DNA of 64,000 nt from NCBI GenBank assembly GCA_963575745.1, contig CAUYUJ010014323.1:1-64000 (forward strand), read 5' to 3'. Numbering within the stretch: position 1 is the first letter of the stretch; every line of letters begins with the position of its first letter. This DNA comes from Prorocentrum cordatum (taxonomy: Eukaryota; Sar; Dinophyceae; Prorocentrales; Prorocentraceae). Shown in pieces: positions 8,330 through 31,812 of the stretch. The notes below the pieces were generated by a model. That model had not been told where the DNA came from, searched no databases, and saw nothing but the letters and a program-made list of their open reading frames with translations. The translations under genes and the position numbers were made by a program.

Positions 8330-8810
8330 CTGGAAGGCGCGTCACTCACGTTCCTCTCGGTAGGGGCCCAACGAACCACGATGCGACAGCCAGTGGCCAG
8401 GGCCAGGCAGGCGATCTTGGTGAGGGGGGGCTTCAGGAACTTAGAGCGGGCACTGCCTTTGGTGGCCCCCAGGGCCAGGGGCAGGGTATCTACGATGAAC
8501 AGCAAGCAGCGACCCAGGGCCCGTTGGTTGCGAAGAGCGTGCCAGACAGCCAGGACCAGGGCCTCCCACTCCAACGCCAAGATATTAATGCCCGGGGAAA
8601 CCTGGGAGGCCGCGATGTGGGCCCACTTGTCAGGATCCATAAACTCGCCTGGGACTTCGTCGAAAGTGCGGGCGGCCTGCTCAGGGTAGGCGGGGTCATC
8701 CGGGAAGGGCCCCACGGGGTCGAGGCTGAAAGGCGCCGAGAACGCAGCCAGAGCAGCCTCGCGAGGGCGAGTGTGTTCCTCAGCTTTATACCGCCATCGC
8801 TCCGAGCATC
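8330..8810 (-). pseudogene. RNase H domain of DIRS-like pol, C-terminal part
   Basis: Reads from the transposon junction as CSERWRYKAEEHTRPREAAL, then FDEVPGEFMDPDKWAH, INILALEWEALVLAVWHAL (catalytic Glu), LLFIVDTLPLALGATKG (Asp) and RWAPTERNVSDAPSRG (Asp/His-type end box WxPTExNxxDxPSR). The first catalytic Asp is missing here and lies at 30154-30237 beyond the 21.3 kb block, whose end is flush with this fragment at 8810. Confidence 0.85.
8809..8810. other. Target-site duplication TC, left copy
   Basis: TC directly left of the left terminal inverted repeat. The matching TC is at 30154-30155. Counting only one TC brings the two RNase H halves into the same reading frame. Confidence 0.65.
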
Positions 8811-8844
8811 CCTTAACATCTTGCTGTCTTGATTTTTGTGAGAC
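8811..8844 (+). repeat. Left terminal inverted repeat (34 bp)
   Basis: Starts CCTTAACATCTTGCTGTCTT and ends TTTTTGTGAGAC. It pairs with 30120-30153 at 30 of 34 positions; the four differences are all transitions, as expected of old copies. Confidence 0.8.
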
Positions 8845-10160
8845 TTCCCGAAAACGCTCAGTTTTAAATTGCAACGTTGAGAGAAAATCAAGACATCGAA
8901 AAAATGCAACACCATAGTGGTAACTGATGGCTAGCAGTTGACCGTCGCCCAGCAGCTGTTACGGGTGGGAGACAGGATGTAGCGAAGGACGCGCGGGCGC
9001 GCCATTTATCTCCGAAGGTGCGGCGCGCGCCGTGCATAATGGCGTGCACGCCATTATCCTGTGATCCCGTTCTATACATCGATCCTCCACGCGGAGGTTA
9101 TGCATAAATCTCCGCCAAAGGAGATCGACCATTCGGTCGCATTCAACCCGAATAGGGAGAAGGAGTATATATATATATGTATATATATATAACAGCACAT
9201 ACATGGCAAAGGAATCGCCGCCGAACGACGTGCACAGGGGATCCGTTCTTTCTCGATCGCATGCGCAATAGTACTCGGCAGCACGGTGTGGCCCGCGCAC
9301 CTGCTTGAAGCCACCCAGCTCCAAGATAAGCACTAGGTTTCAAATGCTCGTTGAATACCGTGACGCGGAGAAAGGAAACGTGCATGTACTGCGTATGTTT
9401 TTGGAAAAAAAGCGGCCCTACCCTGGGTTACAAGTGCGCGGTCTGTAAACCTCCAGGGAACCCCCAAAGCCCATTGCCGCCAGGACGCGGCACATCACGC
9501 AGGGTTTGCCCTGTCAGCCCACCGGAGGTTCAGCGCACAACGCCTCGTAAACCACGGTAGGGGCGTTTTTTTTTTCTGCCCTTGATGTTTATCATGTGCA
9601 CAGAACGCCGCGTCAACCGCAAGTAGCTAGTCGTCGTGATCACTGCGCACTCATGCACGTCCACTCTGAGAGCCACGCGCGAGCGAGAGGAAACGTGAGC
9701 TGGCAGAGGGGATATTTCCAACGATCGCGACGTGCATCGGCTCGCGCGGCCGACGGTGGGGCCGGGCGCGCCCCGACGGAGGTGCCAGCGAAAAGGGCGG
9801 AGGACGGGGGGATGGGGGGGGGCAGTCGCGGGGGCCCCTGGAAAAGTCACTGGGGTCGAGGCCGAGGGAGGGGGACAAGGAGCAAGAATTGATGATCGAA
9901 ACCGAGTCCACTCGGTTCTCCCGACTTCTAGGCTCGCATGTCAACCTGCGCGGCGATCGTGCGTGCGCGTGTGCTTGAGTGTGCGAATGTGTGTGTGTGT
10001 ATGTGTGTGTTTGTGTGTGTGCGTGCGTGCGTGCGTGCGTCTGCGTGTTTGCGCGTGCGGCGCGCTGCCCCCTCCCCATGCAACAGGCGCACATCATGCT
10101 TGAGATCCAAATGAGCAGGGGAGGAATCAATCATGCGTCTGAGCATGCAGCGGCTGACAC
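8845..10160. other. Left subterminal region of giant transposon, no gene recognised
   Basis: Contains one AAAATCAAGACAT motif (8884-8896) like those at the other end, a perfect 22-bp palindrome (9036-9057), a small ATCTCC...GGAGAT hairpin (9108-9125), TA repeats (9165-9191) and a GT/GCGT tract (9990-10048). Short open frames have no recognisable motif. Confidence 0.5.
9036..9057. repeat. Perfect 22-bp palindrome
   Basis: Each 11-base half, ATAATGGCGTG, is followed by its exact reverse complement. It lies 225 bp inside the left transposon end and could be a protein-binding dyad. Confidence 0.75.
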
Positions 10161-10338
10161 TGACGTCGCATTACAACGTCGGCCCTCTATAGAATACCGT
10201 TGCGGACATCTGACGTCGCATCGCAGCGTCGGCCCTGTGTAGAATGCTGCTGCGGACATATGACGTCGTGAATCTACAGCGTCGGCCCTCCATAGAATAC
10301 TTGCGGACATCCGACGTCGTGATTTTACAGCGCCGGCC
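10161..10338 (+). repeat. Subterminal tandem array, left (50-bp units)
   Basis: Units at 10161-10210, 10211-10260, 10261-10311 and a partial 10312-10338. Each begins TGACGTCG, contains CAGCGTCGGCCCT and TAGAATRC, and ends TGCGGACAT. The same units appear in reverse orientation at 29773-29940. Confidence 0.85.
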
Positions 10339-10436
10339 ATGCCGCGCCCCGCACTCAGATCGACGGGATGGGGTGGGTGAGATTGAACCCGCACTCGATA
10401 GCATCGAGGGCCAGCCTCGGCAGGGCACTGGGGCGA

Positions 10437-10543
10437 GGCCGAAAGGCGTGGATCGATCGGTCGACCGACCCATCGATCGCTCGATCGACCGAGCGATCGA
10501 CACCAGTCGATCGATCGGCCGACCGATCTCACGCCTTTCGGCC
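10437..10543. repeat. Foldback with GATC-rich loop
   Basis: GGCCGAAAGGCGTG at 10437 pairs with CACGCCTTTCGGCC ending at 10543. Pairing continues into GATCGGTCG repeats and leaves a short loop of CGATCGA repeats. Confidence 0.7.
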
Positions 10544-10690
10544 CTCAGGGCGGGACTTCTTCGGTAGCTATGCGGCGCTGCAGTCCGGGAGGGGGCCCCG
10601 CGCCCTGACGAGGCCGTCTGCTTGAAAACTCGAGCTGGGTCGAGGGGGCGGTTCGAGCGGCGATGGGCCCGGAGCTTTTTCGAGGCATCT

Positions 10691-11150
10691 TGCCCCTCCG
10701 CGCGGGCCTCCTGCCCCTCCGCGGGCGCCAGGGGTCGAGAGTGAAAGGGCGAAGAGGGCAAGGCGACGGGCGGGGAAGAGCTGGGGCGATGGGGCAGCGA
10801 GAGGGAAGGGGATCGAGGGCGCAACCGCCCCCCTCTTATGAGGGCCTGCAGGTCGAAAAGGATGTGGTGGATCCAGTCATCGGCCTGACTCAGATATGAT
10901 TGCCCTTCCCTCGGGCCCTCCGCGCGGGCCCCCTGCCTTTCCGCGGGCGCCAGGGGTCGAGAGTGAAAGGGCGAAGTGGGCAAGGCGACGGGCGGGGAAG
11001 AGCTGGGGCGATGGGGCAGCGAGAGGGAAGGGGATCGAGGACGCAACCGCCCCCCTCTTAAGAGGGCCTGCAGGTCCAAAAGGATGTTGTGGATCCAATC
11101 ACCAGCCTGAATCAGATATGATTGCCCTTCCCTCGGGCCCGCGTGCGGCG
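10691..11150. repeat. Tandem repeat, period 222 bp, about two copies
   Basis: The block containing GGGCGCCAGGGGTCGAGAG (anchors at 10724 and 10946) and ending CAGATATGATTGCCCTTCCC is present twice, with a third start at 11119. Copies are well above 90% identical. No coding motif seen. Confidence 0.85.
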
Positions 11151-11279
11151 ACGGGGGCGACGGGGAGGGCGCGGGGGGGCGGGGGCGACGGGGGGCGACG
11201 GATACGCACGTGCGTGTACGTACTTGAGGCGTGCACGCGCGCACGCGTACACGCGCGTGCACGCGGCGCAGAGGGTCCT

Positions 11280-11325
11280 CCCTCTCTCTCTCTCTCTCGC
11301 TCTCTCTCTCTCTCGTCTCTCTCTC

Positions 11326-11362
<37 letters not shown>

Positions 11363-11407
11363 GTCTCTCTCCCTCTCTCTCTCATCTCTCTCTCTCTCTC
11401 TCTCATC

Positions 11408-11475
<68 letters not shown>
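11280..11475. repeat. (CT)n microsatellite
   Basis: About 195 bases of CT dinucleotide with rare breaks, followed by a C homopolymer. Long Ser/Leu or Arg/Glu frames through it are artefacts. Confidence 0.95.
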
Positions 11476-11709
11476 CCCCCCCCCGCGCGCACTTTTTCCG
11501 CCTCGGGCAACCGCCGTGCACTTATCAAGGGAAGCAAGAAAACATGTGGGCCCATGGTGAACTGACTTCGCCACGGCGGCAAGCGCACGATTGGTCCCTT
11601 CATCTATATATGTCCAGTAGAATCTGGGGTTTCCCAGGATCCTGGCGGACTTCACAAGGTGGCAACACATGTGGTGTTTATATGTGCAGTGGCCGCCAGA
11701 AGCCTTCCA

Positions 11710-13442
11710 CTACTGAAGGAATTCCAACATGCGCGCCTCCAGGCCCCTTTGGGGCTGGACAGGCATCTTCCGAGGATTGCGCTCGATAGCCTGGTGAAAC
11801 ATCAACAGGTACCTACACGCGGGTGGGATGAAAACATTAGCACCATGAGCAACCGCTGCAGCATCCTCAGCACAAAAATCGGGGAGCAGGGGCACCAGGT
11901 GCCTTGTCTCGGCAGCCTTGGCGTGGAGCCTCGGCTGGTTCACGTCCCCGAGCATCTTCAGGCTGATCCTGAATATTCTCGACTGTGACCCACGTGCAAA
12001 ATTGGCAGCATTGACAAGGTAGTATGTCTTCATACGGCGCCTCAAGTGAATGAGGTTGCGCACTCTACGAATGATCGCTGTCCGAGCGGCACTGCTTGCA
12101 AAGTTTGCCTCGATGAGGGTCCAGAAGACCGTGGCCACCAGCCTCTGCGCGCAGCCGAGATCGAGCACGTGCATGATATCTAAGCAGATCATCGACACAG
12201 TGAACCCGACGACGCCGAGGATCGCGCCACGAAGTTGATCCCCGCATGGTTATTCACGTTGAAGTAATCAAGCTGGACAGGGCGACCTGGACCGATCAGG
12301 TCCTCCACCTCGCCGAGTTTGTGGGCGCCGGTAGCCGCACCCTTGTGGAGCAGCCTGTACCCCGAAGGTAAGCCGAGCTCAGGGAAATTACACCAGGTGC
12401 CATATCCCCACAACTCGGGATCGTGGCGGCAGCATCTCAGCAAGCGTTTGAACTGTGCCTTCGGAGTAACTGTAATCGTCTTCACCGCTGAGCGCATCAT
12501 TTCGGCGTATTGCACGGGACCCTTGTCTACCCATGGGCAGCTCGCCACTGACAGAGGGAACTCACATAGCCGGTCCTTGTGGCAATTGCATGCCCAGCAA
12601 GGGTGCTCCACGTGATCCCACCGCTTGAATCCACACGCCTGGTGGATCTCTAAAAGATCCGCTCTCATCTCACAGACGGCGGCGCATAGCCCGCCAGCCA
12701 ACGCAAAACCACGTTTAGCCGCGCGGATCTCGTCAGCGAATGGCTTGTCGTCGTGGCCACGGTCGGGAAACATCCCTGTGGACATCACATTGAATGACCA
12801 TACGATGGTTCTCACGATGGCTGCCAGGGTGCGCATCCCTCGGCAGCCGAAATGACACAAGTCGCTCTTTCGAACGATGGCGATTGCGTGGCAGGCCGAG
12901 GTGGCAAAGTTGTTCCACGAAAGCGTGATGAAGCTATCGTTCTTTCTGCGGGGCGCCCCGTCGGAGTAGCACCCCACTGGGAAAGCAAGGTCTCCTTTCA
13001 GCTGCTTGACAGCATGGTTCTCGAAGTGTGGCGGCATGTTCTGAGCGCCCAGGCGGCGAAGATCATAGTCCGAAAGGTTGGCCTCGTAGGTGCTGCTGAA
13101 AGTCTCGTGCGGGAGAGACAAGGGGAACTTGCAGTAGGTGCGCGTCTGGGTGTATGAATCCCACATGGGGGCCTCAGCGGTGTAAAACGCCGCACGGCTG
13201 TTCATTCCAAGCGCTTCCCGAATATGGTGAGTGCGGCGCGCTGAACCTTCAGGGTCACATGCTAAGTCGCCCAGGCCGCGGAGCCCAGCCCTCGCGCAGT
13301 GCCACGCGATTGCACGCACATCCTGTCGGAGAGGGGGGATCGACACCATCCTCGGCCACTCAGTTTTCGAATATTCGGGGGGGGGGGGGGGGGGCTGCTC
13401 CCGACCTGGGTAAAGCTTGCGTGGGTCAGATGTGGGCCCCAA
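11710..13442 (-). pseudogene. DDE-like transposase of giant transposon (Tnp2/CACTA-like?), one frameshift
   Basis: A minus-strand frame from about 13200 reads FPLSLPHETFSSTYEANLS, LAFPVGCYSDGAPRRKNDSF (candidate first catalytic Asp), then KSDLCHFGCRGMRTL, WSFNVMSTGMFPDRGHDD, a CxxC-like HPCWACNCHKDRLC, and HKLGEVEDLIGPGRPVQLD. A one-base shift in the CCCC near 12240 moves to the frame LRGAILGVVGFTVSMICLD-IMHVLDLGCAQRLV (second Asp candidate, like DxMHxxxN of Tnp2). That frame ends at a stop at 11710 after KMPVQPQRGLEARMLEFLQ. It is the only transposase-like gene in the block, and would cut and paste the element. Superfamily is uncertain. Confidence 0.55.
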
Positions 13443-13492
13443 CGACGATCAGCATCGATCGATTGATTCGACCCCCCCCCCCCCCCCCCCCC
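13377..13492. repeat. Poly(G) and poly(C) homopolymers
   Basis: A run of about 18 G at 13377-13394 and about 20 C at 13473-13492, complementary and 80 bp apart, so they could pair. Exact lengths are likely unreliable. Confidence 0.8.
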
Positions 13493-14065
13493 TTGAAAAA
13501 TTACATAGGTGGGACGAGGATGGTAATATGATCCCCCCTTCCCTCCCCTCTCCCAGACATCCTGCGCCGCGACCTTGCCCTCGCCCCACCTGCTGAGCAA
13601 GTGCCCCCGCAACCCTTCCCCGTGCGGGTCCGCGAGCTGCCCTGCATTCTCTGACTTCCTGGCTGCCTCGATGGATACCGATGCTGCTGATGCGCGGGCT
13701 GTCATGGTGGCAGGCGGTCCAAGATCGAAAGATTGTGCAATCGAGGTGTAATCGATTCCAGGGATCCCCAAAAAGCTTGATCGCGACAACGACTACGTAC
13801 ACTTGATGCGGGATATGGCTGGTCAGCGCTAGTTCGAGAGAGCCTGAACCGCTCGAGACCTCCTCGCGCCCTCCCAGAGCGTGCGCCACAATCCTCTTCG
13901 CTATAGAATGCGAGGATGTCTCAGGCGAGGGCGCTGGCCATATCTTCGAGATCGGTTCCAGAAGACACAAGCCAACGCGTGTTATGATACGCCTTGGAAG
14001 TGAGGACCGGCCCTCGACAGCTCCAAACGGCAACAGACCTCACGCGACGACCTGCATGTCCTACA
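13493..14065. other. Region inside transposon without recognised gene
   Basis: Mixed sequence. A minus open frame (14033-13449) has no motif I recognise and ends in the C homopolymer. Confidence 0.4.
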
Positions 14066-14204
14066 ATCGGACTCGGTTGGACAGGGCGCGCGGGAGGACA
14101 CAGTACCTTTCTGAGTGCCACGTTGCCACGGGAATACAGGAAGCATGGGTCGCGAGACGCACGACGCAAAGGCACCCTTGATTTGGCAGGGTCGACCTAC
14201 TCAT
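14066..14204. repeat. Dispersed repeat, copy 1
   Basis: CGGACTCGGTTGGACAGGGC through GGCAGGGTCGACCTACTC is repeated in the same orientation at 21986-22124 with many substitutions. On the minus strand both copies give SRSTLPxQG...NRVRL, so the source may have been coding. Confidence 0.7.
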
Positions 14205-14779
14205 CCGAGCCGCCTGCATTGCCATCTGTCGACCTGAAGGGACATGTCCCGCAGCGTCGAGGAACTCATCTGCATCAGACTGGTCAGGCTGCCCCGACAG
14301 TTCGACTGTAAGCATCAGGCCGTCCTTCCCTTCCCCCCGCGCTGGCTGGCGACAAGGCTCAAGCGTTGCTGCCATTCCCTCGCGCGTCGAACACTCCGAA
14401 GCAGCAAACGTTTGCACGTGCACGCCCCCCCCCCCTTCACCCTCGATCCTCATTTACTTGCCCCCCTCCTCCGTTTCAGCCTTGATCAGCTGCTTCCCCT
14501 GAACCCTATCCCCACCATGTTCTCCTCATCAGCCTCGCCACCGACGGGGCCAGGGCAACTGCGCGCGGTCCAAATATCGGCACCTGTCGTACTATACGCG
14601 TATAGTGCATTCACCGCGTGCGGTTCACCGCGCGCCCCTCGAAATCCTGAGTTCCGAGAAGGGGGATGGACACCAGTCGCATGCTTACACGTTAGCGCAC
14701 ACATCGCGCACATCGCACACACATCGCACAAATCACACACACACATCACACACATCACCCACATCAAGATCTTAAATCC

Positions 14780-14780
<1 letters not shown>

Positions 14781-14838
<58 letters not shown>

Positions 14839-14860
14839 CCCCCCCCCCCCCCGCCCCCCC

Positions 14861-14945
<85 letters not shown>
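14781..14945. repeat. (CA)n microsatellite with internal C run
   Basis: Two CA arrays flank a C-rich stretch (14838-14863), followed by CCCCACC repeats to 15005. Confidence 0.95.
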
Positions 14946-15004
14946 CACACCACCCCACCCCACCCCACCCAACCCACCCACCCCACCCACACCCACCCAC
15001 CCAC

Positions 15005-15590
15005 CCTATACACGCGCGCACGCACACACGCACTCGGAAACCCAGGCGAGGACGACTGGCGCTCCACTGACCCGAAGCGTCTTCCAACGCCCTCGTCGCC
15101 GCGCTCACCGATGCCATCGCTGGGGCAATCAGGCTCCGCAGCCGATTCGCCTCGCGAGGACGGGATCGGAATCGCTGGTTCGAGCGAGGGGGGCAGTGGC
15201 GCCCAAGACTATAGATCGCCCCTGCAGGGGCTGGGGCCCCTCTTTAAAGACGGCGCCCCCGTCTGTCGGCATCGATCCACTTGTCCCCCCCCCCCCCCCC
15301 CCCTCCCCCCCGTCAATTGCGCGAGGGTGCAAACCCAGCGGGCGCCCAACTGATGCGAGGGGGCGCGGCTTGGAGAGGTTAGGTCTATAGGCACTGAAGG
15401 ATTCGAATGCGACCTCGGGGCGGGGCCTCGTCCAAGCCAGCATTGATCTGATCGCAGTCGACCGTCGACCAGGCGCGGCGGGGGGTGGACATCTGTGGCG
15501 CCACGTCCCTACTCATCGACCTCGCCCCTCCTCCTCATACGCCTTCCTCCTCATCCACCTCCTCCTCGAGCCCCCTCCTATCTCATATGT
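15005..15590. other. Region inside transposon without recognised gene
   Basis: Contains a C homopolymer (15285-15310). Open frames are short and biased, and no motif was recognised. Confidence 0.4.
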
Positions 15591-15705
15591 CCTCCTCCTC
15601 CTCCTCCTCCTCCTCCTCCTCCTCCTCTCCTCCTCCCCCTCTTCATATTCCTCCTCCTCCTCCTCCTCTCCTCCCTCCCCACCCCCCCCCCCTCCTCATC
15701 CACAT
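15590..15705. repeat. (TCC)n tract
   Basis: CTCCTC repeats on the plus strand, running into C homopolymers. Confidence 0.9.
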
Positions 15706-16009
15706 CATGTCTTTCTCCCCCGCCCCCCTCCTACTCGGGCGGCGCGAGATCGTCGGGCTGGAGGTTCGATCGGCCCTCGGCCAATTCACCCTTGACTCCG
15801 CAACCTCACAGTGCAAACGCTAGAGAGGGGCGCGGTGGCGGGGCTGACTTGCCCTGGATGCCATCGGTCAATTGGCCCTTGAAATCGCTCAGTTGGTCGA
15901 CCGCTTTGTCGATCTGGGGCGCGAACGGCGAGAGCCACGGCACGTTCATCACCTCCCCTGCGCATTTCTTTTCACGCGCGAGGGGGTCGGCCCGATGAGC
16001 GAGGCCGAA

Positions 16010-16185
16010 TCGACGACGGATTGATCGACGATGTCTGATCGATCATCGATCGATTACATTGCCGACGGATTGGCCCGCGATGGATGGATCGACGGATCGA
16101 TCGACGATGGGTCGGCCGATCCATCGAACGACCCTCGAAGCGGACATCGACGACGAGTCGGTGACCAGATCGATATCGACGATGG
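16010..16185. repeat. CGATCGAT-rich cryptic repeat
   Basis: Dense overlapping TCGATCGA palindromes. Similar GATC-rich islands occur at 10440-10530, 17038-17080 and 24827-24980, all inside the giant transposon. Confidence 0.65.
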
Positions 16186-16837
16186 AACGGTCAAGCTCCC
16201 CCCCGCTCACGTCGACGCCAGTCAATTGCGCGTGCGTCTGCGAGCGCAGACCCAGCAGCGCGCCGTGCTGTGCAGCGCTCTTGTTCGCCATTGCTTTCGT
16301 GGCTGAGGATGCCGAAGCGGCACTCTGCTTCCGATCCTCTGGGCTACGAGAGTGACGAGGAGGATGAGGAGGAGGAGGACGCGGAGGACGAGGAGGAGAG
16401 GAGGAAGGGGAGGAGGAGGGATACCCTGGATAATGAGAAGAGGCGGGGTGGGGCTCGACGAGGGTGACCCCAGGGATATCAAGGGGGGGAAGTCGGATCA
16501 TTCTCCTCCACCTCAGCTTGCTCCCCCACCTCATCTTCGTGGATCCTCCGAGGGACCCGTTAGCACAGCGTGTCTCGAAAGCTGCCCCCCCCCCCCCCCC
16601 CCCCCCTGCGAATGCTCAGTCGCTTCCTCCCCGCTTCCACTGCTCATCCACGTCCTCCTATCTCCACTTCCTCCTCCACCATCTCCTCCGCATCCCCGTC
16701 ACTCCCCAATCGTGGGAGTTGTTCCTTCTCGAAGCTCTCGCACTCGCTGTCTGAGTAGGAGCACTCAGGGTAGGAGTCGCTGTCGACGGTCTTCTTCGCC
16801 TCGCGCATGCAGCGCGATGGGGTGGGTGCGTGGGGGT

Positions 16838-17020
16838 GGGGGGGGGGGGGGGGGGGGGGGGCGGGGGGGGAGGCATGGGGCGGGAGTGGGGGCCGTCGGC
16901 GCTTGCTAGATTGCTCACTCCTCCTCCTCCTCCTCATCTTCTTCCTCCTCCTCCCTCCCCCCCCATCCCCCCCCCCCCCTCCTCGATGATCCTCTGGGGG
17001 GGGGGGGGGGGGGGGGGCGG
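16838..17020. repeat. Poly(G) and TCC tracts
   Basis: G homopolymers at 16838-16870 and 16997-17018 bracket a TCC-rich stretch (16917-16985). Confidence 0.8.
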
Positions 17021-17084
17021 GGGGGCCGAGCCGACCGAGCGATATCGACGTCGCCGATCGATATCGATATCGCCCTAATGCGGC

Positions 17085-18990
17085 CCCCTTTCCAGCTAGC
17101 TGCCCACGAGGAAGTTGGCTCGCAGGCTCGAGGGGGGAGGCACTGGGTGCGCGACGCATGAATGCGCGATCTTAAGATGTAGCAGCTGCGCACCCCTTCC
17201 CTGGCAAGCCTGGGCGCCGCGAACACCCTTGGGGCCCGCCTGGCCCGTGCTCAGCCTCGTCTCCAAGGTCTGCTTCTTCATCTGGGCGGCGGCGGGGGTG
17301 GGCGGGGGGTGGAGCGGGGGCGATGCGAGATTAATATCGTACCGTGGTTCCCTCTCGAACCGTTCTTCCCTCGTATCTTCCTTTCCCACCGCCCTCCCCT
17401 CTCGCGCCGTGCTTCTCCCTCGCACAGTCGTTCCCTCTCGCGCCATCACCCCTGCCGATGGACCCCCCCCCAAAAAAAAAAAAACAAAGCGATTATTGTC
17501 CGCCCTCCCCTCGGAAGGCCTGGCGGCCCTCGCCTTCGAGCGTGCAGCGGCGGTAGAGCGTCTCCTTCGTCTGCGAGTCAACCTCCCCCCCTTCCCCTCC
17601 CCCCCCCCTCCTCCTCCTCCTCCTCCTCATCCTCTTCCCCCTCCCCCTCCTCCTCCTCTGATCTCCTCATTCCTCTCTCCTCCTCATCCCCCCCCCTCCT
17701 CTTCCCCCTCCTCTTCCTCTACTCGCTGTCCTCCTCCAGCCTCGGGGGTTAATTGAGATGTTCATTGAGATGCTCATTGAAAAGGCTTTCTCAACTCGAT
17801 CTCCTTGCTTGCATGCCCCACCCGCCCCACGCAGGTGTGCGTCTTCTTGCGTTTGATGCAGAATGCCTTGATTGTCTCGGCCCGCTGGCACGCCCTGGAC
17901 CGAGCCGATGTTTCGCGACAGGTTGGTTTCCGAAGGAGGTCTGACGAAAAGGGGAACCAGGAAATTCAGAGATCGCATGTGAACAGCGATCCATCACTGT
18001 CTTTCGGCAACTCGTCGGCATCATTCCCCTTGCTCGTGCAAAATGGAACCTTTTTTTTTAAACAAAAAAAAATAGCGCCTGATCCCCGCCCCCGTTTTCT
18101 TGTTCTCCTTCGCCCACCCGCGCTCGGAGAACAAGGCGTCCCAGTTGTGCCATTTTTTTTGCATGTTTCACTGTGTTTTGCTCGTGCGATTCTTGGTGGA
18201 CTCTATTGTGCTCGCAGAAGCTGAAATCACCTCCAGGCCAGAGAGAGGGCCCACAAGGTAAAACATGCGAAACAAGCGAATCACGCGAAACGTGCGAAAC
18301 ATATGCCCCCCTCATGCATCAAGTGCTTTGCAGGGCCATCAAGTGCTTTGCAGGGTCCCCATGCACCAAGTGCTTTGCAGTGTTAGAGGGCCACGGCCCC
18401 AATCGCCGAATGTCTTCCACTGCCTCAGCCAGCGTATCTTGTCCGTCTTGCGAACTCTGGCCCGTTCCCGTTGCACGTCAGCTTTCTCTTGGGCAATGGC
18501 GGCCCTCAAAGCGCGGGCCGGCGCGCCAGCGAACGGGATCCGAAACCAAACTCTAGCGGCACACGGGCTGCGAAACATTGGTCGGCCGATGTTTGCTCAA
18601 CACAGCGGGCGCATGCAGGAGAGGAGGAAGGGCGGCGCGTACATGCTCATCGCAACGGGGCGCGGGATGTCCGCATGCGGGGCGTTCTCGCGTTCGCTGT
18701 TCTCTTTGCGGGGCGCAGCCTTCTTTGCTTTAGCAGCCTTTTTCTCCTCGGGCGTCTGCGCTTGTTTCTTCTTTGGCCCCGTCGCCCCCCCTGCCGTCGA
18801 CGGGCCCGCGCGGGGCATGTGGTTCCGCGACCGCGGCCCACGTCCATGCGAATGCGTTCTGCTCGGCAATGCCCAAGTCGGCTACAAACGATCAAGGCAG
18901 CAACGTCCACGTCAAGACGCATCGCGAGACGCAATATCCAAATCGGCAGCGATCGAAAGAGCAATGTCCAGGTCGGCTCCCGTCATCGCA
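17085..18990. other. Region inside transposon without recognised gene
   Basis: Mixed sequence with CTC tracts at 17600-17735. A triple short repeat of CAAGTGCTTTGCAG lies at 18323-18382, and GCGAAAC repeats at 18267-18300. A plus-strand open frame from 18265 becomes Ser/Leu repeat after 19020. I found no conserved domain. Confidence 0.4.
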
Positions 18991-21062: not shown

Positions 21063-21116
<54 letters not shown>

Positions 21117-21216: not shown

Positions 21217-21275
<59 letters not shown>

Positions 21276-21338: not shown

Positions 21339-21371
<33 letters not shown>

Positions 21372-21985: not shown

Positions 21986-22124
21986 TCGGACTCGATTGGA
22001 CGGGGCGCGCGAGAGGGTGCAAGACCCCTCCGAGGGCCACAGCGCCACAATAATGTAGGAATCATGGGTCGCGGGGCACAGGGCGCAAGGGCGCCCTTGA
22101 TCTGGCAGGGTCGACCTACTCTGG
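21986..22124. repeat. Dispersed repeat, copy 2
   Basis: Matches 14066-14204. Minus-strand reading includes SRSTLPDQGRPCALCPATHD, suggesting the parent was a coding sequence. The function is unknown. Confidence 0.7.
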
Positions 22125-22740: not shown

Positions 22741-23575
22741 GGGGGAACGAACAGGGTCTTCTCACCCTCCTGATCCTCCTTCCTATACTGATCCTCGAGA
22801 GCAGCCTCTCCTCCTCATCCTCGCCGCTCCCTGGGGCTCCTCGCTCCTGGCCCTCCTGGGCTCAAGCTCTCTCCTCCTCCTCCTCCTCCTCCTCCTCCTC
22901 GCCACTCCCTGGGGCTCCTGGTCTCCTAACCCTCCTAGTCTTCTATGCTAAAGCTCCCTCCTCCTCTTGACGTCCTTGAGGCTCCTCGCCGGCCTCCTGA
23001 CTCTTCCTCGTCCTCGCCCCCCTCCTCCTTCTCTTCCGCCTCTTCCCCCTCCTCTGGTGCCCCGCCCCAGGTGCCAGCTATCATGCTGAAGTATACAACC
23101 TCCTCCTCCTTCTCCTTGCTCCCCCTCCGGCTTCTCGCCCGCGCTCACATACAACCAGCGCTCGCACGCTGACCGTGCCCCCCCCCCCCCCCCCCCCCCC
23201 CCCATCCCGCACGAGGTGGCCTCAAGGATAACATACGATCGCCGTTCATGGCGTCGACGGGGTTCGCGCCGATGTTCACGAGCACCTCCCAGAGCCAGAG
23301 GTCTCCAGAGCGCTCGGGGACAGATGTAGAGAGATAGGTGGTTCCTCCTCATCCTCGCCCTCCTCGTCATCACTCTCCTTCTCCTGATCATTATCGTCCT
23401 CATCCTCATCGTTCTCGTTTCAATTTCTCATCCTCCTCAGTCTTATCCTCCAGGAAACCTGCCTATATCTCCTCTCCTCGTTCCTTCGCCTCGTCATCTT
23501 CCTCCTGTTCCAGAAGGGCGTCGCCTTCTTCGACCTCCTCGTCCTCGATCCCCTTGCCACTCCTCGTCCACCTCC
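22741..23575. repeat. CTCCTC-rich low complexity with poly(C)
   Basis: TCC repeats throughout (GGAGGA on minus) and a C homopolymer at 23178-23203. Frames through it are Glu/Arg-rich on minus or Ser/Pro-rich on plus and not credible as genes, although it abuts the ORF at 23576. Confidence 0.7.
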
Positions 23576-24160
23576 TCATTCGTCGAGCGACTTGAGCACA
23601 TGGATCTTGATCAGCGTCGCGGCGTCCTTGTTGCACGTCTTCAGCCCCAGCAGGTAGTGGAAGATCTGCTCGAGCGCGAACTTCGACAAGTCGGTCCTGG
23701 TCATGTTGTGCTTCTCGAGCTGCCAGGCCTTCCAGTCCTTGTCCGCCGTCTGGATGAGCTGCTTCCACTGGGACGCTTCGTCATCGATGAAGGTCCTGAA
23801 CACGATGCACTGGTAGCCCTCGGAGGCGCGCTCGCGGTACTTCAGCTCGAAGCGGCCCCCCGCGTCGTCTCGGCATTTGTGCACGCCGTTGCCAAGGAAG
23901 TTCGGCTCCTGGCCCCAGTCGACCGGCGGCGTGAGCACGACAGCCGCCCCCTCAGCTGGGGCCGCCTCCTCATCCTCCTCAGCTGGGGCCGCCTCCTCCT
24001 TAGCGGGGTTCTCCTCTGGCGCTGGGGCCTCGTCCTTCTCAGCTGGGTTCTCCTCTGGCGCTGGGGCCTCGCCCTCCCTGTCAGCTGAGTTCTCCTCCGG
24101 CGCCTCCTCCTGAGTCGCAGCCTTGGCCTTCGCGCGCGCCTTCTTCTTCTTCGGCTGCAC
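23576..24160 (-). CDS. Hypothetical protein: basic head, acidic repeats, unknown C-terminal domain
   Basis: A 194-residue frame. It starts MQPKKKKARAKAKAATQ, followed by repeats of EEAPxPEENPAEKDEAPAPE (about residues 18-75). A non-repetitive C-terminal half follows: VDWGQEPNFLGNGVHKCRD, RFELKYRERASEGYQCIVF, SQWKQLIQTADKDWKAWQL and ALEQIFHYLLGLKTCNKD. Balanced composition in the second half suggests a real folded domain, but I do not recognise it. An upstream register (24300-24180) reads KPTTAKGKATGRPKGKAEG, like an AT-hook or histone-tail segment, so the true N-terminus may be an upstream exon. It lies within the giant transposon and may be cargo or a captured host gene. Confidence 0.5.
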   Translation of the reverse strand: MQPKKKKARAKAKAATQEEAPEENSADREGEAPAPEENPAEKDEAPAPEENPAKEEAAPAEEDEEAAPAEGAAVVLTPPVDWGQEPNFLGNGVHKCRDDAGGRFELKYRERASEGYQCIVFRTFIDDEASQWKQLIQTADKDWKAWQLEKHNMTRTDLSKFALEQIFHYLLGLKTCNKDAATLIKIHVLKSLDE

Positions 24161-24327
24161 CAGCTTGGGCGGGGCGCACTCCTCTTGGGCGTCGCCATGC
24201 CCTCCGCCTTGCCCTCCGCCTTGCCCTTCGGCCTGCCCGTCGCCTTGCCTTTCGCCGTGGTCGGCTTGTCCTCAGGCCTCGGGATCGCGCCGATCGACAG
24301 GCTCGGCGGGATCCAGCTGATAGGTTA

Positions 24328-24850
24328 TTCGGGCTCCTCCTTCTTGACCTCCTTCTTGACCTCCTTCTTGATCGCCTTCTTGCGCGCGCGGTGGCCCATG
24401 AGCTCCTTCATGAACGGCATGCTGATACCTCCACCGCTGCTGCTCGACGCAGCTGCGCTGCTCGCAGCCCCCCCGAGCTCCTCCTCGGCCACCCCCATCG
24501 GAGTCATCCGAGTAGAAGCTGTCCGCCTCCGCCCCCTCGCAGTGTTCAACCTCGTCCTGCGGGACCGCCGCCTCCTCGCCGCGCTCGCCCTCGATGGGGG
24601 CAATCGCCTCATCGCCGTCGCCCTCCAGGGGGACAGCCTCCGCCTCCTCGCCGTTATCCTCGCCCTCGATGGGGGCCGTAGCTTCCTCGCCGTCATCCTC
24701 CAGGGGGACCGCCTCCGCCCCCCCGCAGTGTTCGTCCTCTAGGGGGCAGCCGCTTCCTCGCCGTCGGCCAGGGGGACTGCCTCTTCTTCGTCGGGCTCGG
24801 CGGTGCCCTGTCCACTAGCCACGTGCTCGATCTCGAGATCGAGATCGCGG
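24328..24850 (-). pseudogene. Acidic repeat protein fragment, likely upstream part of the same gene
   Basis: On minus, repeats of EAVPLEDDGEEATAPIEG (24740-24560) stay in phase over about 60 residues, then DEVEHCEGAEADSFYSDDSD. After a one-base shift in a G run come GVAEEELGGAAS and GGGISMPFMKELMGHRARKK, with Lys-rich KKEVKKEVKKEEPE before a stop at 24328. The in-phase acidic repeats argue for past coding. Two register changes mean broken copy, introns, or homopolymer error. Confidence 0.4.
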
Positions 24851-24982
24851 TCGAGGTGCCCCTCGATCGAGGTCGGCATCGATCTCGGCCTCGATCTCGA
24901 GATGGAGGTCTCGAGATCGAGATCGACCCGCCCGCGTCCTCCTGGTCGACCTCGATCTCGAGATCGATATCGATGTGCTGTG
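24827..24982. repeat. GATCTCGA-rich palindromic cryptic repeat
   Basis: Overlapping CGATCTCGAGATCG words on both strands, capable of strong self-pairing. Confidence 0.6.
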
Positions 24983-25019
24983 TAGTTACGCTCCTCTTCC
25001 AACCTCTCGAACTCCTTCA

Positions 25020-25612
25020 TCATCCCTCCAACCCCCTCAACTCAACTCCGCCCCCTCCGACCCCTCCTCCCTTCAGCCACCCCCTCCCCCCCCATCCAAC
25101 TCCGCCCTCCTTCCTCGAAACATCGCCCCCTCCTCCCTCCTTCACCTCTGCTCTCTCCTCCAACTCTTTCCTCCTCTCGCCCTCCCCAGCGGCAGGTCCC
25201 CCCCCCCCCATGTCCTCGTCTGGCGCCGCGTGGGCGTCGTGCAAGTACTGCGCGACGACCTCGCCCTCTACGAACTCGACCTCATCCGAGCAGTCGACCG
25301 GCCACCCCTTCTCAACGATCGATCGCTCGACGGTGTTGCGCTGCTTCCCTCTCGCTCCTCTTCCTCATCCCCCCCATCCTCCTCATCCTACGCCTCCTCC
25401 TCCTCATCCTCCTCCTCATCCTCGCCCCCCTCGTTCCGTTTCCTCCTCCTCCTCCTCCTCTTCCTCTTCGATATTCCTCCTCCTCCCCCCCTCGTTCCTC
25501 TTCCTCGTCCTCCTCCGCCTCCTCCTCATCAAGTTAGTATCCTCTTCACGCCTCTTCGAACCTCCTCCTTCTCCCTCTTCCTTCTCCTCCTCGTCCGCCA
25601 CCCTGCCCTGAC
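25020..25612. repeat. CTCCTC low complexity
   Basis: TCC-rich on plus. An intron-like spacer between exon-like islands. Confidence 0.6.
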
Positions 25613-25614
25613 GT

Positions 25615-25765
25615 CGGGTCGATTCCCTCAAGTCCGGCCGGAGTTCGAGTCGACTCCGTCAAATTCGATCGGTCGAGCCGGGCCCCTTCAAGTTCGATCG
25701 GTCGGCTCTCTAAAGTTCGATGTCAAGTTCGAATCGGCTCCCTCAAGTTCGGCCCCTGGCTGCTC
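25615..25765. repeat. Degenerate CAAGTTCGATCGG repeat
   Basis: Five to six imperfect copies of CAAGTTCGAYCGG separated by CTCC-type spacers. Confidence 0.55.
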
Positions 25766-26239
25766 GCGCCGACCCTCTGGTGACCTCTACGCCCATGTCG
25801 CGGCCGTGCTTCCGCTGCCAGCGCGCGAGCCCGATCGCGAACGCGCGGACCTCGAGGAACCTCGCTCGGGGCAGCGGCACTGACGCAGCAAGCGACGAGG
25901 GGGCGCGACGAAACAAGTCAAACGAAACGGGGACGAGACGCAACGATTCGCCTGCAGCGCCACCAGCCCCTGGACCATCTTCATCGAGATCCTCCTGCGC
26001 CCCTGCTAGGGTGACTTACAGCGCGTTCTGGCCTGCGCGGCCCCAGTGCCCACGTCCTTGAAATCTCAATCCGTTCATCTTATCCTGATATCATCCTCTT
26101 CGTCGTCTTCATCCTTATCCTCCTTCATCTTCCTCAGTATCCTTATCTTGCTCCTCAACATATTCCTCCCTCTCCTCCCCCTGATCCGCTTATTCTCCCT
26201 CTTCCCCCCTCCTCATCCTGGTCCTGCTGCCCCCCATCC

Positions 26240-26369
26240 CCTCTCCGAAAATAAGCTGCGGCGGCGTGCTGGCCTGTGGCCCTCCACGACGCCCGCCCTG
26301 GGCAGCTTGCGATGCATTTTTGTTGCACTGCTCCTGGAACTTGGCGCGATAGCGCTTGTCCCAGACGAC
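26240..26369 (-). CDS. Exon-like island (unknown protein)
   Basis: After CGCTGCCGCAG (acceptor-like) the minus strand reads VVWDKRYRAKFQEQCNKNAS, then QAAQGGRRGGPQASTPPQLI. Normal amino-acid composition stands out from the CTCCTC repeats on both sides. Family not recognised. Confidence 0.35.
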
Positions 26370-26904
26370 CTGCGGCAGCGAGGGTCATGGACGGGGGAAG
26401 ACATGCCGACTCAGGGAGGCAACACTTCCTGCTGGCTGTCTCCACCTCCTCGCCTTCCCCTGAGCCGCCCCTCCTCCTGAAGGACCCTGCGCCCCCCAAT
26501 GCCCTCGAGGCCGCCCGCCCTCGACCCTCGCTGTCGCATCCTCCTGCGTCTCCTCCTGCGTTTGGGCGCGGCGTAGATCACCCTCCTCTAGGGTCGAAGC
26601 TCCGAGAGGGGCAACATAGCTTGCTGACTGCCTCCGCTTGGGCCCCCTCCTCTTGCTGCTCCTCTTCGATCTCCTGCCCCCCCCCCCCCTTCCCCCTGCT
26701 CATCCTGCATCGGTCTCCCTGTCTTATCCTCATGCTCTTCCTCGATCCCCCCTGTCTTATCCTCCTGATTCGCTTCCTCTTGGGTGCGTCCTCCTCTGCT
26801 GGCTCCCTGGCCCCCTCCTCCTCATCCTTCTCCTCTTTCTCCTCCGCCCCCTCCTTCTCCTCGGCCTCCTCGAGGCTCATTCTCCTGCAGGGTGCTTCAT
26901 CCTC

Positions 26905-27045
26905 CTATAACTCGAGCCCGTGACCCATGGGGAGCGCAGGCCCGAGGGCCTCCAAATTCTTCTGGCTCGCGCGGCGGCCGTTGCACATTTTAGTTATCTG
27001 TGCGTACGTGGAGCCGAACACCTGGCTGTCGTCGTCATGGGCGCG
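26905..27045 (-). CDS. Exon-like island, possibly terminal (unknown protein)
   Basis: Minus reading: GRAHDDDSQVFGSTYAQITK, then MCNGRRASQKNLEALGPALP and MGHGLEL to a TAG at 26905. The Asp-rich start continues an acidic low-complexity frame from the repeat upstream. Not recognised. Confidence 0.35.
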   Translation of the reverse strand, partial: RAHDDDSQVFGSTYAQITKMCNGRRASQKNLEALGPALPMGHGLEL

Positions 27046-27379
27046 GCCGCACGTGGATCGTCAGCGCCGATCCCCCTCCTCCTCGTCCTCCTCTCCCCCC
27101 CTCCCTCTCCCCCTCGTTCCTCTTCCTCCTCATCCTCATCCTCCCCCTCCTTATTCGCATCACCCCCCCTCCATCATCCCCCTCGCCCCCCCCCCCCCCC
27201 CCCCTTCCGCGCAACATCTTAACCCTCCACCTCCTCCCCTTCTCCACCTCCACCACTCCTCATCCACCTCCTTCTCCTCCACCTCCATCCCATCCCTTCC
27301 CCTTCTCTTCCCTTCTGTTCCCTTCCCTCCATCCTCCCCCCGAGCACCGTCAGCAAGCAACCCCTCCCAAGCGCCGTCA

Positions 27380-27625
27380 GCAAGTCAGGAATGGGCAGAT
27401 TCCCTGACTGGCCCACGTTGTAGACGCCGAAGTGTGGGATCTGCGCGAAGCCTCCAGGTCGGGGAAATCGTCGTCGGCCCCATCGTAGTCGATCGTCTTC
27501 CCCCCTCCTCCTCCCCCGCCCCCCCCCCCCTCCCCCTCCCCTCCTTTTTCTCCCCACCTTCCTCATCATCTGATTATTCCTCCTCTTGTGTGAAGCCTCC
27601 AGGTCGGGGCAGTCGTCGTCGGGAT
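27380..27625 (-). CDS. Exon-like islands with repeated DDDxPDLEAS (unknown protein)
   Basis: Minus reading gives GDPDDDCPDLEASH (about 27600) and TIDYDGADDDFPDLEAS (about 27480), a duplicated acidic motif. An alternative register gives GGFAQIPHFGVYNVGQSGNL and PIPDLLTALGRG. The duplication at DNA level (GCCTCCAGGTCGGGG at 27446 and 27596) spans the repeat-rich spacer between them. Confidence 0.3.
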
Positions 27626-27964
27626 CACCGTGGTCGCTCCCTTCTTCCTCCTCCTCCTCCCTCCACCCCCCCCCCCCCCCCCCCCCCCTCCTCATCCTCC
27701 TCCCCCTCCTCCTCCTCCCCCTCAGCATCATCCTCATATTTCTCCGCACCTTCCTCCTCATCTTGGTCCCCCTCCTCTCGCCTCCTCCTCCCCTCCCATC
27801 TTCTCTTCCTCCTCATCTCCCGCATATTCATCCGTGTTCTCCTCCTGCTCGCTGTCCTCCTCGCATCCCCCTCGCCCGATGTGCTTCGCAGTCCTCTCAC
27901 CCTTATCATCCTATCCTGCTCCTCGCCACATCTGTCATCCTTCTCACCCCCCGCCCCCCCTTCC

Positions 27965-28370
27965 CCGATAGGCCTTCGATCGTGGGCGCGGTGCGGCTGT
28001 CGTCTCGACGGCCCAGCGCCTGGCGATGCGGGGGCTCATCCTTGCACTCCTCCTCCTCATCTGCCTCATCCTCGCCCTCCACCTCCTCCTCCCCGTCCTC
28101 ATCCTCATCCTCATCCCTCCTCCTCATCATCCCCATCCTCATCTTCTCGAGGCCGTCATCGATCCCTCTCCTTCTTCCTCCTCCTCCTCCTCCTCCTCCT
28201 CTTCCTCCTCCTCCTCCTCCTCATCCTCCGCATCCCCCTCCTCGCCCTCCTCATCCCCCCCCCCCGCCCCCTCCTACGCGCGGCCGTGCACGTTGCGCCT
28301 CTGCCGCATCATCCAGCGCGACCTCCTCTAGTGTGATCGTCTTGTCGCGGCGCAGCTTCGGCGTCATCGC
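27965..28370 (-). CDS. Exon-like islands (unknown protein)
   Basis: Minus readings CRAMTPKLRRDKTITLEEVA then LDDAAEAQRARPR (28370-28265), and ECKDEPPHRQALGRRDDSRT then APTIEGLSG (28050-27965). They are separated by GAG-rich low complexity. Together with the other islands they look like exons of an acidic nuclear-type protein, but the chain cannot be assembled with confidence. Confidence 0.3.
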
Positions 28371-28554
28371 CCGGCAGCGGAACGAGGGGGCGAGGGGGCA
28401 GAGGGGGGGGGGGGGGCAGGGCCACACCGGCGGGCGAAGATGAGAAGCACGAGGCGGAGGAGGACGGCGGAGGAGGAGGAGGGGGGGAGGAGGAGGGGGG
28501 GGGGGCGAAGGAGGAGGATAAGGAGAGGAGGGTAACCGAACTAGAGGAGGAGGA

Positions 28555-29010
28555 TGAGGAGGAGGAGGAGGAGGAGGAGGAGGAGGAGGGGTGGCCTTGA
28601 CCAAAACCATGTGGGAGGCCTACTTCTTCACGAATCGCCTGCGCGCCCATGCTGCGAATTTCTTGACTATGTTTTTTGCCAGCGTGCGGCCCAAGGATGC
28701 CCGACATCACCATCGGCTCGGGGGGCCCCTAGAGGAGGAAACCAGGTGATCGAGGAGGGGGAGGAGGAGGAGGAAGGGACCCGAGGGATATGCAAACTTT
28801 CTGGGAGAGGTTCTGACGCGCCCGGCCGCCGCATGGGGATCGGGGGAAATGAAGGAGGCCCTCAGGCGGATCAGTTAGAGAATGAGCAGAAGGGGAAGCC
28901 TCGAGAGGAGGAGGAGGAGGAGGAGGAGGAGGATCGGGATAATGATCACACTGAGGAGGAGGAGGAGGAGGAGGAGGAGGAGGAGGAGGAGGAGGAGGGG
29001 GGGAGAAGGA
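28555..29010. repeat. (GAG)n tracts with a short unique segment
   Basis: GAG repeats at 28555-28590 and 28903-29000. Between them lies about 150 bp of unique sequence that could code on either strand (plus: TMWEAYFFTNRLRAHAANFL), not recognised. Confidence 0.6.
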
Positions 29011-29313
29011 TCAGGAATATCAGGAGGATCATGATCAGGCGGATCAGAAGGGGGGCCAGCAAGAGGATCAAGGAGGAGAAGCGGTGTCCTCAGGCTTTAA
29101 CTCTGGGACGCCCGCGGCGTCGCACGCCTCGTCGAGCCGCCGCGCTATCTCGACCATCGCCTCGAGGAGAGCTGCGATCGATCGATGGCACGGCGGTCAA
29201 CGAGGCGTGCGTCCTTGCCCGCAAGTCCCCCTCCTGTCCCCATTCGCTCCCTGCCCTGAATTCCCCCTCAAGTTCTCCTGAAGCTCCCTGCCCACGAGTC
29301 CTCGAGCTCCCTG

Positions 29314-29318
<5 letters not shown>
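29011..29318. other. Region inside transposon without recognised gene
   Basis: Mixed sequence, followed by a CT tract that leads into the gap. Confidence 0.4.
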
Positions 29319-29354
<36 letters not shown>

Positions 29355-29475
29355 NNNNNNNNNNNNNNNNNNNNNNNNNNNNNNNNNNNNNNNNNNNNNN
29401 NNNNNNNNNNNNNNNNNNNNNNNNNNNNNNNNNNNNNNNNNNNNNNNNNNNNNNCTCCTCCTCCTCCTCCTCCCC
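29319..29475. other. CT microsatellite, 100-N scaffold gap, TCC tract
   Basis: 29355-29454 are exactly 100 N, a conventional gap of unknown size. It sits between (CT)n (29319-29354) and (TCC)n (29455-29475), a place where assembly commonly breaks. Confidence 0.95.
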
Positions 29476-29772
29476 CTCCCCCTCGAGGATCCTCTCGACC
29501 CTCTGCGGGCCCCGCCCCCGCGCCTTCGCTCGGCGGCGGGCCGCGCGGGCGCGCTCGCGGGGCTGGCCGCGCGGTGCGCGCTGGCCCTGAGCCATGCGGC
29601 GATCGATCCTCCTCTCCCTCCTCCTCGCCCTCCTCCTCCTCCGCCTCCTCCTCCTCCTCCTCTTGAGTTCCTCCTCCTTCCTCCTCCTCCTCCTCCTCCC
29701 CCTCCTCCTCTCCCTCCTTCTCCTCCTCCCGCTCCCCCCTTCGACTTCCTCCCTGCCCTCGACGAGCCCCCC

Positions 29773-29940
29773 CTCCGACGCTGTAAAATCGCGACGTCGG
29801 ATGTCAGCAACAGCATTTTATGAAGCCCGCCGCCGTAAATGTAGATCGATGTTCGCAGCAGTATATTCCATACAGGGCCGACGCTGTATAATGCGACGTC
29901 AGCTCTGTGTCCACAGCAGTTTCCATAGAGGGCCGACGCG
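29773..29940 (-). repeat. Subterminal tandem array, right (inverted relative to left)
   Basis: Reading the minus strand from 29940: CGTCGGCCCTCTATGGAA, then TGACGTCGCATTATACAGCG with CTGCTGCGAACAT, then a diverged unit and CGACGTCGCGATTTTACAGC. These are the same roughly 50-bp units as 10161-10338, in opposite orientation. Confidence 0.8.
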
Positions 29941-30003
29941 GGGGAGAGGGGGGATATTTTTTTTCGAAGGGGGGGGCCTGGCAATCCGACAGAAAACAAA
30001 ACA

Positions 30004-30112
30004 TATACGCGGAAACCAAGACGTATACGCGATAATCAAGACATGTACGCGAAAATCAAGACATGCGCACATCATGCCTAAAAATCAAGACTTCGCTGAA
30101 AAAACCAAGTCA
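30004..30112. repeat. Right subterminal short repeats AAAATCAAGACATG
   Basis: About five copies of AAATCAAGACATG or AAACCAAGACG, spaced about 20-30 bp, between ACGCG words. The same core lies inside both terminal inverted repeats and once at 8884. Confidence 0.75.
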
Positions 30113-30119
30113 AGAGGCC

Positions 30120-30153
30120 GTCTCACAAAAACCAAGACAACAAAATGTCAAGG
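30120..30153 (-). repeat. Right terminal inverted repeat (34 bp)
   Basis: GTCTCACAAAAACCAAGACA to ATGTCAAGG, the reverse complement of 8811-8844 apart from four transitions. The outer end abuts TC (30154-30155) and the RNase H reading frame of the DIRS-like element. Confidence 0.8.
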
Positions 30154-31812
30154 TCTGCCGATCGCGCCCGCTGTCTCGCAGGAGGTCCGCCGGACAGCGA
30201 CGCCGAAGCCAGAAGGGGGCGCGTCGGAGGCGTGAACGCGCCCGGCTGCGCGGTGGACAGTGGGAGGACACATCGGAGCCTCCACAGCTCCCGCCTGGCG
30301 CCAGGCCAGAGAGCAGTAACTTCCCTGTCCGCCCGCTCGATAAACGCATGCACGTCACCCAGGAAACTCAAAGCTTCTCGACGCAATAGGGCGGCCCAGG
30401 TTATGTTCCCCACCACGACCTGAAGGAGAGATCCGCTAGCGCGGCCGCGCTGGGGGATCTCTTCTATGGCGAGGCGCAGCCTCCAAAGGCCACGGCGCTT
30501 GATAGATGACCTGGCCCCCGAATTCAAGTCTAATCCCAGGAAGGCCGAGTCTGACGAGGCGGGTTCCAGCTCGTGAACCACGAGGCCCTTGCGTTCCAGG
30601 GGCGAGCGAATTCGGGAAACCGTCGAGTCCACGATAACCAGGCCCTGGCCGAAAACAACGAAGTTGTCGACATAACCAGCCACGCGGACCCCAGAGACAT
30701 CGTCGAGCGGGGAGGCGGGGCTGCCGCCCACGACGAGGCGCGACCCATCGATGCCAGAGTCGCCCAGCGAATTCAGCAGTGCGGACTGGGCGATGCGCAT
30801 GGCCCAGCTCCGGCCCATCGGCAGGATCGTGAGCGCAGGCTCCAGCATGGTCCCGGGGCCCACCTTCTGGCCTTCAACCTCGGTCAGCCCGGCAACTCCG
30901 GCATCGATGGGGGGGGGGGGCGGGGCAAAAAAATCCTGAAGCTCTGCCGGGAGGGCCATTCTGCAAAAGTAATTGTCTACGTCGCCCGACCCCGCGCAAA
31001 GACCTCCGCCTCAGGGGGCTCCAGGGGGCCCGGGGCCGAAGCGGTGGAAGGGCGGGTGGCAGGAGGGGTTTGATAAAGCAAGTGGCGACGCGAGAGTCGA
31101 AGACGAGCCTGAACTTTCCAATTTTTTTCGCAGCGCAGAATGCCAACTTCACTATGGCGGCCCGCAGCGAGCTTCCAGGAGGCCACCCCCCGGTCGACCA
31201 ACCTCCGGACGAAGGCAGCGCGACGAGCAGGAGACGACCCCAGGAGCGGATCAACATACGGGCCGAACGGACAAGCTTCTCGAATTAAGCTATGCGCCCC
31301 GGCCTCCAAAAGCGACAGGGCGGGCACCTTCAACTGGCAAGGAAACGAAGTCCTGGGAGCACGGTCGCCTAGGTGGTCCCCAGAGAGTCGCACAAACAAC
31401 TAGAGGCGCAGAGCTCGCTGAGGGCTTCCGCGCCGGAGGGGAGATCGGCCGGCTGGGGCCCCGCGGCGTGGAACTGCTCAGCAACGTGCTGAAGGGCGAG
31501 CTTCTGGCGCAGGTTAGGATTCGCAGAGCGGCCACCAGGGGCCAAGCCGTAAGCACTGCTGAGGGAAGCAATGGCGTCGCTGGCCCAATCAGTCGAGAAC
31601 CTGGCCTGGCGGCGGCGCCGGGTGACGCTTCTACTCGCCTGCGAGGAGCTGGCAGCGCGGGCAGAACGGGATGGGGAGGAAGGGGAGAGGAAAGATACCT
31701 CTGGCACGGGCAGAGGCAGCCTCATCACTGAACGTTCCCGGGCGCGAGGCAGAGCACGGAGAGGGCGGAAAGTTAATGTTGCCTGGCGCCGGGGCCCTTG
31801 AACCAGCGCCAA
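30154..31812 (-). pseudogene. DIRS-like pol: N-terminal region, reverse transcriptase, start of RNase H
   Basis: Minus-strand blocks in order: STDWASDAIASLSSAYGLA (N-terminal, about 31590), LIREACPFGPYVDPLLGSS, KFRLVFDSRVATCFIKPLL (RT entry, about 31116), SGDVDNYFCRMALPAELQD (motif A with Asp, about 30990), LTILPMGRSWAMRIAQSAL (motif B region), GYVDNFVVFG (motif C with YVDN, about 30660), SDSAFLGLDLNSG, ITWAALLRREALSFLGDVH (thumb), and VHASDAPPSGFGVAVRR then AIGR (start of RNase H with its first Asp). The frame stops flush at the transposon. At least three register changes occur, so it is a pseudogene. YVDN replaces the YxDD box, a variation found in DIRS-type RTs. Confidence 0.8.

Follow-up and report, generated by a model that had tools for sequence, protein, structure and literature searches.

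Why does the RNase H frame of a retrotransposon lie in two halves 21.3 kb apart? This question is raised by the window analysed here, positions 1-64,000 of contig C13474 of the dinoflagellate Prorocentrum cordatum, in which a block bounded by long terminal inverted repeats (TIRs) separates the two parts of a DIRS-like element. We consider it very probable that a decayed DIRS-like retrotransposon has here been split by one giant cut-and-paste DNA transposon, the block at 8811-30153, which belongs to the CACTA-Mirage-Chapaev-Transib/RAG1 (CMCT) clade. At the level of sequence, this reading draws on the ends, the 2-bp duplication at the locus, unbroken target sites, further copies next to different flanks and a transposase gene that is conserved and has the CMCT residues.

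Insertion footprint and unbroken target sites

The 34-bp inverted repeats proposed by an earlier, sequence-only reading of this DNA were recovered at both ends of the block with 30 of 34 positions identical, against 22/34 for the best 34-mer among 399 random pairs of stretches from the window. The termini are CCC..GGG. TC is read at both edges, and the flanks joined with a single TC give ...HASDAPPSGFGVAVRRTSCETAGAIGR up to the site and CSERWRYKAEEHTRPREAALA... beyond it in one frame, as that reading had claimed for the two DIRS halves.

Because the joined RNase H peptide gave no match when searched against proteins, unbroken sites were sought by a DNA search of the genome itself (an assembly of 4.13 Gb in 21,875 contigs). 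Apart from the window itself, the right flank matched in 26 rows, of which one is a 42-bp piece contained in another. The three rows that start no more than two bases past the insertion point (C19889, C13611 and C21321) were all examined, and the left flank of the window matches them at 85-89%. Two of these three DIRS relatives carry the unbroken site with one TC (C19889 reads TIGRCSERWRYK and C13611 reads AVGRCSERWRYE); the third has a 25-bp deletion reaching up to the insertion site. These paralogous sites are the uninterrupted DIRS copies that had been anticipated and, with the independent copies of about 21 kb in different flanks described below, they bear out the claim of an insertion with an exact footprint.

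The names reverse transcriptase, RNase H, tyrosine-recombinase-like and methyltransferase-like are what we take the DIRS parts to be from their motifs; a Pfam scan of two DIRS open reading frames (ORFs; 7679-8341 and 6522-7916) gave no match. An additional frame change separates the reverse-transcriptase part of pol from the RNase H part. With RNase H in pol, followed by stretches that are presumably recombinase-like and methyltransferase-like, the interrupted element resembles the dinoflagellate SymbioDIRS as portrayed in the available text of PMC5890265; unlike SymbioDIRS, its frames are broken, and here the DIRS element is the target and not the block.

Other copies in the genome

At least 16 matches to the left 190 bp of the element and at least six to the right 194 bp were found in the assembly, the window included in both counts; these are lower bounds, as the right end of the C4625 copy was found only by direct comparison. 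The left-end matches comprise the window, C17877 (the same locus), C3537 (with the same flank as C9558) and 13 others. Ten of these 13 could be read, the left ends of C1692, C21299 and C21321 being unreadable with the pattern used. None of the ten has the window flank by BLAST and none shares another's flank by eye, as expected in the sequence-only reading of a mobile unit found beside new flanks. The readable copies start CCCTGACAT, part of which was already contained in the search pattern.

Two full copies, in C9558 and C4625, are contiguous and without N in the stretches compared (21,324 and 21,338 bp), so that a DNA transposon of more than 20 kb, as had been inferred, stands on uninterrupted sequence. 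Both are collinear with the window end to end, the matching pieces of C9558 being approximately 67-87% alike. The window block measures 21.3 kb as assembled and about 21.8 kb with its gap sized as in C2990, a stretch of which is N-free from the matching interior through the gap position to the right end. Copies in C4758, C19309 and C13339, followed only short of the right end, agree with the window at 81-95% over matches at least 370 bp long; the C19309 copy contains 5 kb of N.

The dinucleotide left of the element is TC in six of the 11 readable copies (window included) and TT, AA, GG, CT and CC in one each. Both ends could be compared in three copies: the flanking pair is TC/TC in two of them and TC/GC in the third. 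Strict choice of TC targets is ruled out by the other dinucleotides; there is a preference at most.

The transposase gene

In the window, two defects break the main exon of the transposase: the frame changes between 12225 and 12213, and a stop lies at 11710-11712. In C9558 and C4625 this exon is open over 605 codons. A probable first exon lies some 210-240 bp upstream, with splice ends inferred by eye. The homolog P0003, likewise from P. cordatum, is 76% identical over 35% of the query. The ratio of non-synonymous to synonymous substitution rates (dN/dS) is 0.14-0.29 between subfamilies, 1.0-1.25 for the window against C19309 of the same subfamily, and 0.62, from 12 changes, for C9558 against C4625. 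Judged by these ratios, the transposase is under purifying selection between subfamilies, and the pattern is as expected if the enzyme is kept during movement of the element and decays where elements land.

The protein carries the residue pattern D, D, C(2)C, H, H(3-4)H, E of the CMCT clade. The three putative catalytic positions D, D and E are kept in 10/11, 12/12 and 7/7 alignment rows, the homolog P0004 having G in place of the first D. C(2)C is present in all 12 rows, MH in 11 of 12, and H649, H650 and H654 in 7/7. C(2)C and H(3-4)H are described as a CMCT feature in the available text of PMC12730594. The spacing of D, D, C(2)C, H..H and E is nearly that of RAG1, and the transposase model aligns with RAG1 across approximately 400 residues, within a RAG1-like core fold; the protein is thus predicted to fold like RAG1, a likeness that by the model would extend to Transib and ProtoRAG. 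An initial AlphaFold model, made from 12 rows headed by P0001, was poor, with a predicted local distance difference test (pLDDT) of 55.8 and a predicted template modelling score (pTM) of 0.30, and was not used for structure search. Foldseek alone returned nothing at E <= 0.001 for the transposase model against the PDB and viral sets. At the sequence level, a profile search of PDB sequences gave no match to RAG1 and one weak, unrelated match. Pfam returned no match, including Tnp2 (PF02992), for the window, C9558 and P0001-P0003 proteins, although distant relatives can escape such a search; scans of window ORFs and of C9558 and C13339 ORFs gave no informative match.

Taken by its clade residues and target-site duplication (TSD), the element resembles a CMCT transposon and probably functions as one. 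The DDE (Asp-Asp-Glu) transposase that it encodes would bind the TIRs and probably the subterminal repeats too, and the whole element would be excised and inserted at a target site cut with a stagger of 2 bp (TC in this case). If the broken window copy is to move again, a transposase would have to act in trans.

Relation to known elements and weighing of alternatives

Cut-and-paste DNA transposons of about 21 kb are rare. The TSDs of Transib and ProtoRAG elements measure 5 bp, and the elements themselves are far smaller. The claim that the block is far larger than usual is fair, yet its size is exceptional rather than without precedent, because a 20.5-kb CACTA element with TIRs, subterminal motifs and two functions, the soybean Tgmt*, has been published (available text of PMC2613891).

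This element also provides the closest competitor, that the block is a classical but diverged EnSpm/CACTA transposon. It would be a narrower version of the CMCT reading, with which its odds overlap, and we regard it as rather unlikely. Giant size, TIRs, reiterated subterminal motifs, a short TSD and a transposase with perhaps a second gene recall plant CACTA elements such as Tgmt*, and the DDE residues with C(2)C and H(3-4)H are held in common, being a feature of the whole clade. EnSpm/CACTA elements are recognised by CAC(TA)..(TA)GTG termini and a 3-bp TSD, and neither was found. Whereas Tgmt* is given 13-bp CACTA TIRs and a 3-bp TSD in that text, the present copies begin CCCTGACAT, with 34-bp CCC..GGG TIRs, a 2-bp TSD and no Tnp2 match; because of these ends and this TSD, we do not file the element as a classical CACTA. 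The fungal CMCT lineages Plavaka and ESTA share the CMCT residues, and PlavakaA also the 2-bp TSDs; unlike the CCC..GGG ends and varied dinucleotides seen here, Plavaka termini are TGT..ACA or CATCA..TGATG, and ESTA has TA TSDs (both as given in the available text of PMC12730594). It is conceivable, as a tentative proposal, that a dinoflagellate lineage of giant 21-kb transposons forms a superfamily-level branch of its own within RAG1/Transib/CMC, with CCC..GGG ends and a 2-bp footprint, recently mobile in a 4-Gb genome in which open transposase copies remain.

Three further explanations appear very improbable. Scaffolding over the 100-N gap, 0.7 kb from the right end, might have joined two DIRS fragments around unrelated sequence; such an artefact is hard to reconcile with the TC footprint and in-frame unbroken sites, with C2990 running N-free from the interior to the right end, or with the whole N-free element in the C9558 and C4625 stretches. 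Being about 20 kb long, bounded by TIRs and from a protist, the block might be a Polinton/Maverick-like or other virus-derived element, an idea that we give hardly any weight in view of the 2-bp TSD and the predicted RAG1-like fold of the transposase; capsid, polymerase B and integrase gave no match in six block ORFs and two C9558 ORFs, most frames being unscanned. Finally, a segmental duplication, or movement of the block along with its DIRS flanks, would place the DIRS flank inside the repeated unit. This was seen once, and it weighs against an independent insertion: in C17877:1-15706 the locus recurs together with the DIRS flank, the two main pieces being 98.7% and 97.5% alike and a third 88.5%. 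The flank is absent from all ten other readable copies. C17877 begins inside the element, and the match ends there, at the contig end; it is likely, judging from this arrangement, an unmerged overlap of contig ends, that is, assembly redundancy. As an observation on the assembly, window 1-16187 and C17877:1-15706 constitute an overlap of about 16 kb between two contigs, 88-99% alike by pieces, that was left unmerged.

Among the matches listed from the open-licence PMC literature, there was no description of a CMCT, CACTA or RAG1-like transposon in a dinoflagellate, and the available text of the dinoflagellate papers PMC10666404, PMC11453091 and PMC7789003 names no such element. The nearest dinoflagellate case, in the text available, is a 119-bp EnSpm6_SB match in one Alexandrium ostenfeldii fosmid read (PMC3229502); EnSpm-5_CCri matches are recorded in sea-anemone transcripts (available text of PMC6505742). 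In very large dinoflagellate genomes, a family transporting some 21 kb at each transposition, whose copies differ in age and include open transposase frames, would be a testable contribution, and a sequence-divergent transposase with the RAG1 layout is useful for the question of the origin of the RAG enzyme.

Interior of the element

The motif CAAGAC occurs five times within 170 bp at the right end, against 0.08 expected (P 2e-8). A candidate second gene, ORF2, has collinear counterparts open for 526 and 524 codons in C9558 and C4625, respectively. Its conservation is weak and unproven, at approximately 30% identity over a low-complexity stretch (complexity filter off). Comparison between subfamilies gives ORF2 a dN/dS of 0.84; for C9558 against C4625 the value is 1.99, from 22 changes. 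By analogy with plant CACTA elements, ORF2 may, as a guess, encode an accessory DNA-binding protein. Much of the remaining interior is of low complexity and pyrimidine-rich on the plus strand. The features are compiled in Table 1.

Table 1 Coordinates of the transposon, its parts and the interrupted DIRS-like element in the window
Feature	Position	Strand	Basis
Giant DNA transposon, very probably of CMCT type	8811..30153	.	TIRs, TSD, unbroken sites, independent copies
TSD TC, left copy	8809..8810	.	flank reading, unbroken sites
TSD TC, right copy	30154..30155	.	flank reading, unbroken sites
Left TIR	8811..8844	+	pairwise comparison, starts of readable other copies
Right TIR	30120..30153	-	pairwise comparison, other copies
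Left subterminal tandem repeats of about 50 bp, inverted relative to right set	10160..10336	+	76% over 170 columns, E 3e-24
Right subterminal repeats matching left set	29775..29938	-	comparison with left set
Subterminal 20-bp direct repeats with CAAGAC	29992..30064	+	also in C2990 and C9558
Assembly gap of 100 N within element	29355..29454	.	about 0.55 kb without N in C2990
Probable first transposase exon, 48 codons, MTARASAASVS...GLRGHLLSRWGEGKVAAQ	13562..13705	-	ends by eye; P0001 N-terminus compared
Main transposase exon, broken	11509..13325	-	homologs P0001-P0010
Candidate second gene ORF2, 231 codons	23579..24271	-	longer collinear frame in C9558/C4625
Upstream part of interrupted DIRS-like pol (presumed reverse transcriptase, RNase H start; frame change between)	30154..31010	-	translation, paralogs
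Downstream part of interrupted, presumed RNase H	8107..8808	-	translation, unbroken sites
Remaining DIRS-like element, presumed tyrosine-recombinase-like and methyltransferase-like stretches	6519..8040	-	translation

Nested insertions and other repeats

Inside the transposon, an array of 62 copies of TTTGAACGTTA occupies window 19904-20649 and is matched in the C4758 copy too; a 222-bp tandem duplication lies at 10694-11140, where C9558 has a single matching unit. The transposase gene of the C13339 copy contains a 20.1-kb insertion (C13339:247101-267234) flanked by the 9-bp repeat ATCCCACCC. Judged by eye, its two ends are similar and inverted, and its open frames (1567, 926 and 613 aa) gave no significant Pfam match; this is perhaps a second giant DNA transposon family inside the first. 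In the C4758 copy, an insertion of 6.6 kb (C4758:130152-136744) lies at the place of window 18098-18101; by eye it has the short inverted ends CCTAACAGC / GCTGTTAGG, and GASQPA-like peptides recur in its open frames. A further insertion in that copy, about 5 kb long, is found near window 23.1-23.4 kb.

Elsewhere in the window, a 2.6-kb array of the 10-bp unit ACTGCCCCAG at 57901-60530 includes a 629-codon open frame at 58280-60169, and related 21-bp arrays (e.g., GGGGCCACGAAGGGCAGCAAC) are located at 55409-56188, 57139-57768 and 62316-62662. Two tandem duplications look recent, one of 208 bp at 4661-5047 (100% matches) and one of 163 bp at 5813-6119 (96%).

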